A DNA stretch of 64,000 bases from Actinomycetota bacterium (GTDB taxonomy: Bacteria; Actinomycetota; Acidimicrobiia; IMCC26256; PALSA-555). The stretch's first letter is position 1. Each line of letters begins with the position of its first letter. The stretch spans positions 183,574-247,573 of the forward strand of contig VGBR01000001.1 in assembly GCA_016870355.1 (NCBI GenBank), written 5' to 3'. Of the stretch, positions 7,587 to 47,591 are shown one piece after another. The notes under the pieces are model-generated. The model was not told where the DNA came from. It worked only from the letters and a program-made list of their open reading frames with translations, and searched no databases. Position numbers and translations under genes: made by a program.

Positions 7587-8101
7587 GGAATGAGCTCCGA
7601 CATCGTGAACAGCGCCCGGAGCTCGACGTCGATCTCGGCGAGCGCTTCGGGCCCGCCGGACTCGCGGTTGATGACGCAGAGCGCGACGTCGACCTCGGCA
7701 TTGCGGTCGCGTAGGTCTTGGCACGATGCGACGACCTGTCCGCCCGACGTGACGACGTCTTCGACGACGGTCAGCCGCACACCGGCGACGTCGCGACCTT
7801 CGGCGAGCTGACACGTGCCGTACGTCTTGGCTTCCTTGCGGACGAACACCGCAGGGAGCCCCGTCACCTGCGAGAGCATCGTGGCCAGCGGCACGCCGCC
7901 GAGCTCGAGGCCGGCGAGCGCGTCGGTCGTGTCCGGGACCAGCGGCGCGAGCGCGTCGGCGATGGCGCGCAACAGCTGGGGATCAGACTCGAAGCGGTAC
8001 TTGTCGAAGTACTCGGTGCTCGTCGCACCTGACCGGAGGGTGAACTCCCCGGTGAGGTGCGCGACGTCGTAGATGGCGCGCGCCAGTGCGTCTCGGTCCA
8101 T
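7583..8101 (-). CDS. pyrE: Orotate phosphoribosyltransferase-like protein
   Basis: FTLRSGATSTEYFDKYRFESDP; PRPP motif VVEDVVTSGGQ. Confidence 0.88.
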   Translation of the reverse strand: MDRDALARAIYDVAHLTGEFTLRSGATSTEYFDKYRFESDPQLLRAIADALAPLVPDTTDALAGLELGGVPLATMLSQVTGLPAVFVRKEAKTYGTCQLAEGRDVAGVRLTVVEDVVTSGGQVVASCQDLRDRNAEVDVALCVINRESGGPEALAEIDVELRALFTMSELIP

Positions 8102-8615: not shown

Positions 8616-10379
8616 TCAGGCCGCGGCGGGTTCGATCGGGCCGTAGCGGACGATCGGCTCGAAGTGGTCGAGCACCGTGCGGTCGTCGCCCAGCAGACCT
8701 CGGGCACGCGTCGGTGTGAGCCGTTGCGCGAAGCGGCGAGCGATGACCGCCTTGCGCGCGTCGCCGTCACGACCGAGCTGCCAGGTGGCCTCGTCGAGGA
8801 GGAGCGCACCCTCGACCAGATCGGCGAGGAGGTGCGTGAGGCGCTTGGCATTGAGGAGCTGGGTGTCGTCGTCGGCCGCGGCGTAGTGCGCGATTGCCTC
8901 CTTGGCGTCGGTCAGGGTGCTCGCCACCGCGTCGACTGCCGGCGCGAGCACTGGCTCGTGGCTCGCACCGTCGAGCGCACGCGAGACCCGGGCGAGCAAT
9001 GCTTCGTGCGCGTCCTCACCACGGATGGCGCGCCGCACGTCGAGGCAGCAGATGTTCTCCGTGCCCTCCCAGATCGTGTGGCACTGCGCGTCGCGCAGCT
9101 GCCGGGCCATCGGCCAGTCCTCCATGTAGCCGTTGCCACCGTGGATCTCGAGGCTTTCGCTCGCGGCGCGCAGGGCCTCGCGGGTGGCGCGCACCTTGGC
9201 GATCGGCACGAGGATGCGGCGCAGCATCCGGCCTTCTTCCTCGTCGGCGGTTGTGCGAGTGGCGGCTGCACACTCGAACGTCAGCGCCATGCCAGCTTCG
9301 AGCCCGACGAGCAGGTCGACCAGCGTCTCGCGGACCATCGGGTACGCGTCGATGCGTTGATCCCATTGCGTGCGGTGCGACGCGTAGATCGCGGCTTCGA
9401 GGAACGACCGCCGGTGGATGCCGAGCCCCATGAGCGCGACCCCGAACCGACTCCCGTTCACCATCTCCATCATCTTGTTCAGGCCACCTCTATTCGCTCC
9501 CTCGCTGCGAGCCGGGGTACCCGGCTCGCGGTCGCTCGCTCGCTGGGATGCCATCCATGCGCGCGCGCCGACGAGCTCGATCTCTGCGGTCGGCACCGCC
9601 TTGGTGCCGAGCTTCGGCTTCAACCGCTTGGTGTGGAAGCCGTTCGGCGTGCCGTCGGGGAGCACCCGCGGGACGATGAAGGTGGCGAGTCCGCGGGTGC
9701 CATCGGGCGCACCTTCCGGACGCGCGAGCACGATGAACACCTCCGCGTCGGCGTTCGAGCAGAAGTGCTTCTCGCCGAAGATCCGCCACTCGTCGCCGTC
9801 GGGCACCGCACGGGTCGTGTTCGCACCCACGTCACTTCCGCCCTGGCGCTCGGTGAGGAACATCCCGCCTTCCCACGCCTCCTCGGGATCGAGGCTCGTG
9901 AGCCGGCGGACGAAGTCGTCGCGCACATCGTCGGGCGCATAGCGCTCCACGATGTCGGCGGCGCCGACCGTCATGCCGAGCCCGCAGTAGATGGCGGTCT
10001 CGGCCTGGCTCACGAGGTAGTTCATCGCCGCCGTCACCACCGCGGGAACGGGTCGCCCGGCGTGGCGAGACAGACCGGTGAACCCGGCCCGTACCAGATC
10101 GGCCTTGCTCTCGACCCAGCCGGGATGGTGCTCGATGTGATCGACCTCGTGGCCCCACTCGTCGTAGCGAAGCAGCTCGGGGCCGTGCTTGTCGGACACC
10201 TCGGCGCGGCGAGCGAGCGCACCACCGCACAGCACTCCGTAGCGCGCGACGTGCTCCTCGGCGAACTCGCGATCCGCCGTGTCTGTCAGCAACCGATCGA
10301 GCAGGAGGCGCAGGTTCGGATCGGCGGCGTACCAGTCCAACCCGATCGCGCCGTCGTGCGTTGCGTAGTCGGGGAGCAT
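8616..10379 (-). CDS. Acyl-CoA dehydrogenase (588-codon form), containing the in-frame repeat copy
   Basis: MFLTERQGGSDVGANTT; FGEKHFCSNADAEVFIVLARPEG; EIHGGNGYMEDWPMARQLRDAQCHTIWEGTENI. Confidence 0.93.
   Translation of the reverse strand: MLPDYATHDGAIGLDWYAADPNLRLLLDRLLTDTADREFAEEHVARYGVLCGGALARRAEVSDKHGPELLRYDEWGHEVDHIEHHPGWVESKADLVRAGFTGLSRHAGRPVPAVVTAAMNYLVSQAETAIYCGLGMTVGAADIVERYAPDDVRDDFVRRLTSLDPEEAWEGGMFLTERQGGSDVGANTTRAVPDGDEWRIFGEKHFCSNADAEVFIVLARPEGAPDGTRGLATFIVPRVLPDGTPNGFHTKRLKPKLGTKAVPTAEIELVGARAWMASQRASDREPGTPARSEGANRGGLNKMMEMVNGSRFGVALMGLGIHRRSFLEAAIYASHRTQWDQRIDAYPMVRETLVDLLVGLEAGMALTFECAAATRTTADEEEGRMLRRILVPIAKVRATREALRAASESLEIHGGNGYMEDWPMARQLRDAQCHTIWEGTENICCLDVRRAIRGEDAHEALLARVSRALDGASHEPVLAPAVDAVASTLTDAKEAIAHYAAADDDTQLLNAKRLTHLLADLVEGALLLDEATWQLGRDGDARKAVIARRFAQRLTPTRARGLLGDDRTVLDHFEPIVRYGPIEPAAA
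9494..9543. repeat. Copy 2 of dispersed palindromic element, inside the acyl-CoA dehydrogenase ORF
   Basis: tcgctccctcgctgcgagccggggtacccggctcgcggtcgctcgctcgc with perfect 10-bp stem gcgagccggg/cccggctcgc; both strands' spurious ORFs share peptides with copy 1 (ASERPRAGYPGSQ). Confidence 0.82.
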
Positions 10380-10425
10380 CGTCACGAGGCTACCCGAGCC
10401 CCTCTTGGTCACTAGCGTGCGGCGC

Positions 10426-10890
10426 ATGTTCCGTGCGGCCGCAGTCGCGTTCACAGTGTTGATGGCCTCCGCGTGCAGCGGCGCGACGCCGTTGAGCATC
10501 GAGGAGTTCACGAAGCGTGCGAACCAGGAGTGCGCATCGCTTCAGTCGGCGAGCAACGCGTTCCGCAAGGCACAAGATCCATCGTTCACCGGCGATCAGG
10601 TGACGCGCTTCTTGGGGAAGATTGCCGACCGCCTGCGCGGGTTGGTCGCGAACATCGACGAGCTCGAGCCACCCGACGCGATGCAGTCGGACGTCGATGA
10701 CCTCCTCGACGTGCTCGCGGAGTACGCCGACGGGCTCGACGAGCTCGGAGAGAAGACCGCGCCTGGTCAGACCTTCCAAGGTGTGCTCGAGGAGAGCACC
10801 GGCAAGGTCAACGCGCTCAACGAACTCGCGACCGAGGCGACCGTGCTCGTGGGCAACCTCGGCCTCGTGAGCTGCATCCTGCCTGCGTAA
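10426..10890 (+). CDS. Putative lipoprotein, alpha-helical, two Cys in mature domain
   Basis: MFRAAAVAFTVLMASACSG lipobox. Confidence 0.65.
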   Translation: MFRAAAVAFTVLMASACSGATPLSIEEFTKRANQECASLQSASNAFRKAQDPSFTGDQVTRFLGKIADRLRGLVANIDELEPPDAMQSDVDDLLDVLAEYADGLDELGEKTAPGQTFQGVLEESTGKVNALNELATEATVLVGNLGLVSCILPA

Positions 10891-10965
10891 CCACATCTCA
10901 CAACTGGGTCACGGTCTCGGCGCCGCGGTGTCCCGACGCCGCAAGCCGAATCCAGGAGGTTCCTC

Positions 10966-45000: not shown

Positions 45001-45077
45001 GGGGGTGTAGCTCAGTCCGGTAGAGCGCTACGTTCGCAACGTAGAAGTCGTGGGTTCAAGTCCCATCACCTCCACCA
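45001..45077 (+). tRNA. tRNA-Ala(CGC), CCA encoded
   Basis: Cloverleaf gggggtg..cacctccacca, anticodon loop ttCGCaa, G3:U70 identity pair. Confidence 0.95.
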
Positions 45078-45080
45078 ATC

Positions 45081-45246
45081 GTGACATTCTCGAACCGGGG
45101 CGCGTGTCTGCGTCCCGGTTCTTCATTTCCTGATCCAGGGTGGAGATGAGGTCCTCAGCAAGGAGTGCAGCGAAGGGCTCTGTCAGCTTCACCGCTGTAA
45201 CGCCGTCGATGTCCACGTAGATCTCGTCGAAGAACGCTCGATTCAT
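45081..45246 (-). pseudogene. C-terminal fragment of a large serine recombinase
   Basis: [33 protein letters not shown] resembles the C-terminal region of serine recombinases; no catalytic domain. Confidence 0.6.
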
Positions 45247-45425
45247 CGAACGTGTCGACGCTGCCGATCGCGCTGTACCCGGACATGAAGATCGGCCAGA
45301 TCTCCTTCTTCCGCATGAGCACGCCTGCCGAGAATCCCTACGGCAGCGACAGCACCGGCTCGAAGTATCAGGGGCAGCGCCGGCCGACGCCGTCGCGCTA
45401 CTACCTCAACTTCCGCGAGAAGTAG
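45246..45425 (+). pseudogene. dcd: 3' fragment of dCTP deaminase
   Basis: [59 protein letters not shown], typical actinobacterial Dcd C-terminus; no N-terminal part. Confidence 0.85.
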
Positions 45426-45428
45426 CGC

Positions 45429-46715
45429 TCACCCGACGCCGCAGCTGTTCTCGATGAAGCTCTCGAGGCGCTCCGACGCGGCGTCGAGAGCCGGGTCGTC
45501 GCCGGCAGCTGGGGCCGCGGCAAGCGAGAAGTCGGCGGCCTCGAGTTGGGTGAGCAGCGCGTCGAGTGCGCGGCTCAGGAGCGCAGTGTCGGCCGCGATC
45601 GCGTCGGGCGCGAGCGGCTTGAGGCGTCCGAGGTATTCCGCGTTCGTCCGGAAGTAGTCCTCGACATCTTCGGGCGCCGGCGACGCGGGTCCCTTGGCGC
45701 CACCGCTGGCATTGCGCGGCAACGTCTCGACCCATTCCGCAGCCACCTCACAGAAGTCCTCGGACGCGGCTGTCGTGGTCGTCGTCGGCCTGCTGTCGCT
45801 GGATCCTCCGCCGCTGAGCGCGGCGAAGACGCCCGCAGCTGCGACTGCGGTCGCGAGCGCTACCCCGCCGACCGCGAGCCTTCGCGTCGAGCCCAGGCCG
45901 GGCGGGTACGACCGTCCCCCACTCGTACCCGACCGGGTCTCGAGGGCGCCGAGCGTGCGGTCGCGGAGGATTGCCGGCGCCGTCGCAATCGGCACGGTGG
46001 CGAGCAGCGCGATCGGGCTCGCCAGCGCTCGCCGCCGCTCGAAGCACGTCTCGCACGAGTCGACATGCCGCGTGACCCGACGGCGGACGTCCGGCGCATA
46101 CGCGCCGTCCCAATCAGCGAGCATCGCAGCGAGCTCGGGGCAGTCGCGCCGTCCGAGGCGCGCCACCAGCAGCGCGCCGAGCGCACGCTCGACCCGCTTG
46201 CGGACATTCGAGGCCAACACGTATGCGTGTTCGCGTCGAACGCCCAGCGCGTCCGCAAGCTCGGCACCGTCGAGACCTTGGCGCACGCTCAGATCGAGGA
46301 CGGCCCGGTCGCGCGGTTCCAGCCCACCAGCCGCGGCCCAAACGAGCTCACGCAGCTCGGCTTCCTCGACTTGCAGTTCCGGACTTTCCGCCGCGGGCGC
46401 CGCCATGTCCGGCGGCTCCTGGAGATCGAAGCCTGCGCTGCGGCGGGCGCGACGGAGTGCCTCGTGCCGCGCGATCGCGTACAGCCAGGCGCGCACTCGC
46501 GCCGGATCACGTAGGCGCGCGAGGTGCTGCCAGGCGAGCATGAAGGTCTCCTGGGTCGCGTCGGCCGCCTCCTCGTTGCTGCGCAAGGTCGCCCGACAGA
46601 AGTCGTGGATCCGGTCGGCGTACCGGTCGTAGATCGCGGCGAAGGCGTCGCGGTCGCCCGCGAGCGCCTGCGCCACGAGTTCGGCGTCGTCGTTCGTCAC
46701 TTCACGCGGTGACAC
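45429..46715 (-). CDS. ECF sigma factor fused to ZAS-like zinc finger, TM helix and extracellular domain
   Basis: Sigma region 2 (DRDAFAAIYDRYADRIHDFCRATLRSNEEAADATQETF), region 4, HVDSCETC (Hx3Cx2C), TM LAVGGVALATAVAAAGVFAAL, TTTTTAASEDFC..ENSCGVG domain. Confidence 0.88.
   Translation of the reverse strand: MSPREVTNDDAELVAQALAGDRDAFAAIYDRYADRIHDFCRATLRSNEEAADATQETFMLAWQHLARLRDPARVRAWLYAIARHEALRRARRSAGFDLQEPPDMAAPAAESPELQVEEAELRELVWAAAGGLEPRDRAVLDLSVRQGLDGAELADALGVRREHAYVLASNVRKRVERALGALLVARLGRRDCPELAAMLADWDGAYAPDVRRRVTRHVDSCETCFERRRALASPIALLATVPIATAPAILRDRTLGALETRSGTSGGRSYPPGLGSTRRLAVGGVALATAVAAAGVFAALSGGGSSDSRPTTTTTAASEDFCEVAAEWVETLPRNASGGAKGPASPAPEDVEDYFRTNAEYLGRLKPLAPDAIAADTALLSRALDALLTQLEAADFSLAAAPAAGDDPALDAASERLESFIENSCGVG
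45646..45785. repeat. 140-bp near-identical block, copy in sigma-fusion gene
   Basis: 3 mismatches over 140 nt to 46931-47070. Confidence 0.92.
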
Positions 46716-47178
46716 CGCACGCGGTCTCGATGTAGCTCTCCAGCGTGGCGCGGTCGGCCAGAAGCGTCGGGTCCGACGCGTTCGCCGCCGCGACCGAGAA
46801 GTCGAAGTTGCTGGCCTCGAGATCCTCGAGCAGTCCGACCGACGCCGGGTGCAGCCGGCTCAGAGCATCGGCGACAGCGGGCGTCGCCTGGCCCGAGAGC
46901 TCGTCGAGTCGCCCGAGGTACTCGGTGTCGGTCCGGAAGTAATCCTCGACATCTTCCGGCGCCGGCGACGCGGGTCCCTGGGCGCCACCGCTGGCATTGC
47001 GCGGCAACGTCTCGACCCATTCCGCAGCCACCTCACAGAAGTCCTCGGACGCGGCTGTCGTGGTCGTCGTTGCGCTCGCCGACGTGCTGTCGTCGGACGA
47101 ACAGGCCCCTGCGCTGAGCGCAAGGGCGGCGGCGGCCACGGCCAGCAGGTACGAGCGGTGCCTTGAACGGTTGGTCAT
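46702..47178 (-). CDS. Lipoprotein carrying the same extracellular domain
   Basis: Lipobox LALSAGACSSDD; TTTTTAASEDFCEVAAEWVETLPRNASGGAQGPASPAPEDVEDYFRT; overlaps start of the sigma gene by 14 nt. Confidence 0.88.
   Translation of the reverse strand: MTNRSRHRSYLLAVAAAALALSAGACSSDDSTSASATTTTTAASEDFCEVAAEWVETLPRNASGGAQGPASPAPEDVEDYFRTDTEYLGRLDELSGQATPAVADALSRLHPASVGLLEDLEASNFDFSVAAANASDPTLLADRATLESYIETACGVTA
46931..47070. repeat. 140-bp near-identical block, copy in lipoprotein gene
   Basis: See 45646-45785. Confidence 0.92.
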
Positions 47179-47220: not shown

Positions 47221-47433
47221 TCACCCGTTCAGAGATCCCTCGACCGGAAATCTAAAAGACCTGGCGGCGGATTTCTCGCTTCCGAGCTCGGTCAACAGCG
47301 CCTGGCCGGGCTCGTCCTGGATGTCGGCGACGACACAGCGCGCGCCCTCCTCGACGAATCGGCGGACCGTTCCCGCACCGATGCCGCTCGCCGCGCCGGT
47401 GATGACCGCGACCTTTCCGTCGAGCCGTGTCAT
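47221..47433 (-). pseudogene. N-terminal fragment of a short-chain dehydrogenase/reductase
   Basis: MTRLDGKVAVITGAASGIGAGTVRRFVEEGARCVVADIQDEPGQALLTELGSE then unrelated 16 aa and stop; catalytic YxxxK part missing. Confidence 0.85.
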
Positions 47434-47591
47434 CGTCTCGTCCCTTCGTCCGCGACTTCGGCGGCACCGAAGGTACCGCCTGTTCGCGACAGCTCGGCGA
47501 GCTCCTCGACGAGCGCGGGCGTCATGAGGTCGGTTATGTGCCCGCGCAGCCCGTCGCGCCATGCGATCGGGTCACCGCTGAGGCCCGTCAG
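47430..47591 (-). CDS. Small ORF (~53 codons) between cupin-like gene and SDR fragment
   Basis: LTGLSGDPIAWRDGLRGHITDLMTPALVEELAELSRTGGTFGAAEVADEGTRR; ATGA overlap with SDR start; no ATG/GTG at the expected start. Confidence 0.4.
   Translation of the reverse strand: MTGLSGDPIAWRDGLRGHITDLMTPALVEELAELSRTGGTFGAAEVADEGTRR

Follow-up and report, generated by a model that had tools for sequence, protein, structure and literature searches.

A predicted membrane-tethered ECF sigma factor whose outer domain closely matches the lipoprotein encoded beside it

We analysed a 64,000-nucleotide stretch of contig VGBR01000001.1 from an Actinomycetota bacterium of the class Acidimicrobiia (the window), which carries on its reverse strand a gene for a one-piece extracytoplasmic function (ECF) sigma factor. 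The encoded protein is predicted to join a sigma factor, a class I anti-sigma (ZAS) domain, a transmembrane (TM) helix and an outer sensor in a single polypeptide. This layout is already known, because the published ECF48, ECF52 and ECF53 groups have the same architecture; what is unusual is the type of sensor, which we call the FC-type domain, and its link to a neighbouring lipoprotein. The adjacent gene encodes a product of which the outer domain is a near copy, a point that the original prediction made for this locus had missed. We consider it reasonably probable that the protein is a sigma factor held at the membrane until a signal triggers its proteolytic release, and that it acquired its sensor from, or exchanged it with, a partner lipoprotein.

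The original prediction described an open reading frame (ORF) of 428 residues containing sigma regions 2 and 4, the motif HVDSCETC, a TM helix, a threonine linker and an outer domain with two cysteines, and we confirmed all of these parts, with region 4 weak when taken alone. They are arranged as follows:

45429..46715 (-), one-piece ECF sigma factor gene, 428 codons open, GTG start
46437..46634 (-), sigma-70 region 2, residues 28-93; Pfam PF04542 (Sigma70_r2), E 1.5e-13, over the cut-off
46170..46349 (-), sigma-70 region 4, residues ~123-182; Pfam PF08281 (Sigma70_r4_2), E 0.0011, under the cut-off
45930..46163 (-), predicted fused class I anti-sigma (ZAS) domain, residues ~185-262, with zinc ligands and an 'APAxLRDxxL' helix
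45822..45878 (-), TM helix, residues 280-298; hydropathy 2.09 over 19 residues
45432..45785 (-), threonine run and FC-type helical outer domain, residues 311-428; 66% identity to the domain of the neighbouring lipoprotein

The region 4 assignment stands despite the weak score of the window copy because the family supports it (a Pfam match in 30 of 34 aligned relatives), and the NCBIfam model TIGR02937 (sigma70-ECF) spans residues 23-179 above its cut-off. By its content of regions 2 and 4, with regions 1 and 3 absent, the product is predicted to be an ECF sigma factor. Its C-terminal extension measures ~245 residues, zinc site and TM helix included. A short linker of ~12 residues leads from the TM helix to the TTTTT run, and the outer domain, which contains exactly two cysteines (C322 and C425), is all-helical in an AlphaFold2 (AF2) model with a predicted local distance difference test (pLDDT) score of 79 and a predicted template modelling (pTM) score of 0.72. 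TM helices were called from hydropathy, and several of the counts reported below depend on ORFs called by rule.

The resemblance between the sensor and the neighbouring lipoprotein extends to the DNA, where the two genes share an identical segment:

46702..47178 (-), upstream gene for a 158-residue predicted lipoprotein with lipobox Cys26 and an FC-type domain; 14-bp overlap with the sigma ORF
45696..45785 (-), 90-bp identical segment, sigma copy; probable gene-conversion tract
46981..47070 (-), 90-bp identical segment, lipoprotein copy; partner of 45696-45785

Over the first 47 shared codons the two genes are 97.2% identical, as compared to 58.6% over the other 70. Codons that encode the same amino acid in both genes differ in 3 of 46 cases in the first part versus 11 of 33 beyond it (Fisher p 0.003). 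Since synonymous sites are spared, which selection at the protein level does not explain, the likely cause is a recent gene conversion superimposed on a domain that the two genes already shared. Separately, recombination between the two direct repeats could remove the sigma gene, with a single complete lipoprotein gene remaining.

We defined the FC-type domain as ~110 helical residues with F-C at the start and a cysteine near the end that can be recovered by profile. No convincing Pfam or NCBIfam family was found for it, and a fold search returned no match in the PDB at E < 0.001. A profile built without the window pair recovers both window copies (E 4.7e-13 and 1.4e-7), and a profile of five sequences places the domain in 57 of 296 genomes of the class. 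The lipoprotein was also tried as a single query, but its matches were mostly to the signal peptide and linker, and the profile was used instead. In the loci examined, nearly all FC carriers that are not sigma factors have a predicted lipobox, and none has a sigma gene within 1.5 kb. As judged from these predictions, the FC domain is otherwise a lipoprotein domain in this class, and its presence on a sigma factor is the unusual part. The fusion is nevertheless not confined to the window, and the idea of a unique domain swap was dropped: a second FC-type sigma fusion in genome G092 (locus L157) shares 33% identity with the window protein over 422 aligned positions, and a profile from which it had been left out finds it at E 1.1e-6, the best unrelated ORF scoring E 1.1. 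The two lineages may have captured the FC domain independently or only once: when the two fusions were constrained to one clade, the clade was not rejected (approximately unbiased test, p-AU 0.097).

The cytoplasmic part of the extension has the features of a ZAS domain. Its zinc site (C192, H217, C221 and C224) has the spacing C-x24-H-x3-C-x2-C, with HVDSCETC at residues 217-224, and all four ligands are invariant in the 34 aligned members. We built an anti-sigma profile from 19 relatives (residues ~185-262) and searched 177,635 PDB sequences with it; the only two entries at E<=10 were RsiW (E 0.0013), whose alignment covers the zinc finger and the helix after it, and, as a weak match, RskA (E 1.3). 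The four-ligand site and the helix 4 homology mark the extension as a predicted class I anti-sigma domain; because RsiW and RskA are the sole PDB matches of its profile, the prediction that this domain inhibits the fused sigma part is well founded by homology. That the sigma factor is tethered to the membrane and fused to a ZAS domain, as originally proposed, is thus well supported at the sequence level by the invariant zinc ligands, the RsiW match and a conserved TM helix.

Other genomes with the same architecture, which the original prediction had suggested looking for, turned out to be numerous. A match to the window protein at E 1e-20 or better is present in 59 of the 296 class genomes, and three further one-piece sigma proteins are encoded on other contigs of the same genome. 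The H-x3-C-x2-C motif occurs in all 42 sigma ORFs from the 40 best loci, and nearly all relatives on a long enough contig have a TM helix at the equivalent position; a second survey yielded 78 sigma-ZAS ORFs, of which 76 also have a TM helix and an outer part. When 397 genomes of the phylum were searched by profile, this core also turned up outside the class, among others in genomes of 6-10 Mb. A search for named relatives gave mostly ordinary proteobacterial sigma factors. The outer domains of relatives are mostly immunoglobulin-like (Ig-like) with two cysteines, a profile of this domain matching 31 sigma ORFs, and the others include HYDIN-type Ig, cadherin/Big_9, PKD, PASTA, CAP and AbfB domains; the window's outer domain belongs to none of these types. 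One conserved core of sigma factor, anti-sigma domain and TM helix is joined to Ig-like, cadherin, PKD, PASTA, CAP, AbfB and FC-type domains across the survey, which makes these a natural set of interchangeable sensors.

Several relatives merit separate mention. The fused sigmas L190, L193, L194, L195 and L196, from large actinobacterial genomes, have CAP or AbfB outer domains (assigned by Pfam for L190, L193, L195 and L196, and by eye for L194). PASTA outer domains are found on the fused sigma at 5389-6999 of L159, which suggests peptidoglycan sensing. In family f20 (L062, L064-L068 and L074) the same glycosyltransferase-like gene lies 3' of the sigma gene, mostly within 80 bp.

Pairing of a sensor with a similar neighbour is also seen elsewhere, with a different domain. 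On contig C11 of the same genome (L049), the gene immediately downstream of the sigma gene (10133-10897) lacks sigma regions, and its secreted or anchored product contains the Ig-like domain of that sigma factor (hidden Markov model (HMM) E 1.4e-17); in G042 (L056) a sigma-free gene that is adjacent and convergent to the sigma gene and ends at 7697 encodes a secreted or anchored protein that likewise has the sigma's Ig-like domain (HMM E 1.8e-9). By BLASTP among the first 40 loci, outer domains were shared in 3 of 40 same-locus comparisons versus 6 of 1,560 across loci; L085, one of the three same-locus cases, is weak (a subtilase with a PKD-like domain). That family sigmas repeatedly take their outer sensor from an adjacent envelope protein, that gene conversion matches the pair, and that the sensor reads the partner, or whatever the partner binds, is a tentative idea, which we consider improbable as a whole.

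For the window pair, these data can be combined into the following mechanism. The built-in ZAS domain most likely clamps the sigma domain in the cytoplasm, as RsiW homology would suggest, and a single TM helix would connect this part to the extracytoplasmic helical two-Cys domain, keeping the membrane-bound sigma factor inactive. Once the outer domain meets a signal, proteolysis in and near the membrane would be expected to release the sigma factor, as envisaged for ECF48/52/53; two M50 (RseP-type) proteases are encoded in the genome. The simplest account of the sensor's origin would be that it was taken from, or exchanged with, the adjacent co-oriented lipoprotein, and that recent gene conversion has kept part of the two identical. 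With less confidence, the sensor and the lipoprotein could share an envelope ligand or bind one another, which would make the lipoprotein a partner or competitor of the switch, or its product. What is said here of sigma release, the ligand and the regulon is inferred. Several results weigh against this mechanism. The RsiW profile match is modest, and the full-length AF2 model, with a pLDDT of 54, was discarded because its quality does not allow clamping to be judged. The regions upstream of family members yielded no conspicuous ECF-type promoter motif; a shared autoregulatory motif was rejected, as dyad counts were no better than in shuffled sequences and GAAC-N15-18-CGT occurs at chance frequency in the window. 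Finally, the pairing is not obligatory, because ~71 of 75 family loci have no neighbour that shares the outer domain and the G092 (L157) locus has no FC lipoprotein.

The surroundings of the two genes are disrupted. A tRNA-Ala gene at 45001-45077 may be an old integration site, and the short open stretch beside it at 45085-45300 (-) resembles what we take to be a site-specific recombinase C-terminus, with no Pfam match. Of a dCTP deaminase gene, a 3' fragment is present (45240-45425, +), which ends 3 bp from the sigma stop; a complete copy is on contig C3 (76% identity over 60 aa), and a 5' fragment of a short-chain dehydrogenase (SDR) gene (47240-47480, -; PF00106, first ~56 residues) lies directly upstream of the lipoprotein gene.

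This setting bears on whether the shared domain reflects function. It could instead be an accident of tandem duplication and recombination by a scarred tRNA locus, with no functional tie between sensor and lipoprotein, as the position between the tRNA-Ala gene and broken genes (the deaminase and SDR fragments and a possible recombinase remnant), the sharp drop in identity past the first 47 shared codons and the many family members with no outer-domain-sharing neighbour would allow. We nonetheless think such an accident unlikely, as the reading frame, cysteine pair and fold are preserved in both FC copies, an FC-sigma fusion also occurs in G092, and a similar pairing with another domain is present at L049 and L056. 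Much less credible is a misassembly in which the 90-bp repeat misjoined two genes. The repeat is exact, its copies are spaced by 1,285 bp, and the genome is a draft of 31 contigs; however, each copy has distinct flanks on both sides, a swap would still put the FC domain behind the sigma's TM helix, and family members independently contain sigma factor, TM helix and outer domain in one ORF. A sequencing error that fused two ORFs, raised with the original prediction, was rejected because independent genomes show this fusion as well.

Even if the sensor is functional, activation might proceed without proteolysis, through a conformational change of the outer domain or zinc site, with the sigma factor acting at the membrane or through redox-dependent zinc release. 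ZAS domains can be redox-responsive, as established for RsrA-type proteins, and a cleavage site cannot be shown from sequence. ECF sigmas with extensions that are activated by conformational change are also known (PMC8999054). A TM-anchored sigma factor would, however, need to act at the membrane, and proteolysis is both the route proposed for ECF48/52/53 and the fate shown for the sigma/anti-sigma fusion IutY (PMC8999054), so that non-proteolytic activation seems to us quite unlikely. Release by proteolysis of a sigma factor with a sensor derived from its neighbour is the reading that we carry forward. The signal is unknown for most one-piece ECF sigmas, and with a nearly identical lipoprotein next door the search can be confined to a single domain family and a single partner, in a sigma-lipoprotein pair small enough for testing in a laboratory host.

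Comparison with known systems delimits what is new. ECF48 and ECF53 are actinobacterial groups with extensions of up to 400 residues that contain a zinc finger and one or two TM helices and are predicted to have anti-sigma function; the extension size, zinc finger and TM helix of the window protein fit this definition, as judged against the published description (PMC8999054). The ECF52 protein SCO4117 of Streptomyces coelicolor has a zinc finger, a TM helix, a long proline-rich extension and a carbohydrate-binding domain (PMC5826349). It shares with the window protein the combination of ECF sigma factor, zinc finger, TM helix and extracytoplasmic sensor in one polypeptide and the proposed release by proteolysis, published for ECF48/52/53 (PMC8999054), whereas the window protein has a short threonine linker and a helical FC-type lipoprotein domain; an ECF52-type proline-rich extension and carbohydrate-binding domain were not encountered, and no carbohydrate-binding Pfam match was found in the window protein. 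The original prediction named an existing, well-described ECF group of this architecture as its refutation, and ECF52 (SCO4117), ECF48 and ECF53 largely amount to that. In a phylogenetic tree the window protein occupies a lone branch, and the accounts of ECF48/52/53 make no mention of an FC-type sensor or a link to an adjacent lipoprotein (PMC5826349, PMC8999054). RsiW (sigma-W/RsiW complex, PDB 5wuq), whose zinc finger and next helix align with the window extension, is a separate protein, whereas the anti-sigma domain of the window protein is fused to its sigma factor. IutY of Pseudomonas putida (ECF243) is a sigma factor fused to a membrane anti-sigma factor and freed by regulated proteolysis (PMC8999054); it resembles the window protein in its one-chain design, but is a Gram-negative protein of iron-starvation cell-surface signalling with a different anti-sigma part and no FC domain. 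The SigI/RsgI systems of Clostridium thermocellum offer a likeness of principle, in that the regulator's sensor resembles a module of the genes controlled, as with RsgI6, whose GH10 module resembles its GH10 xylanase targets (PMC4711584, PMC6056542). RsgI is a separate anti-sigma factor of another family and senses polysaccharides; if family sigmas do take their sensors from adjacent envelope proteins, they would embody the RsgI principle within one protein, the lipoprotein being the client.
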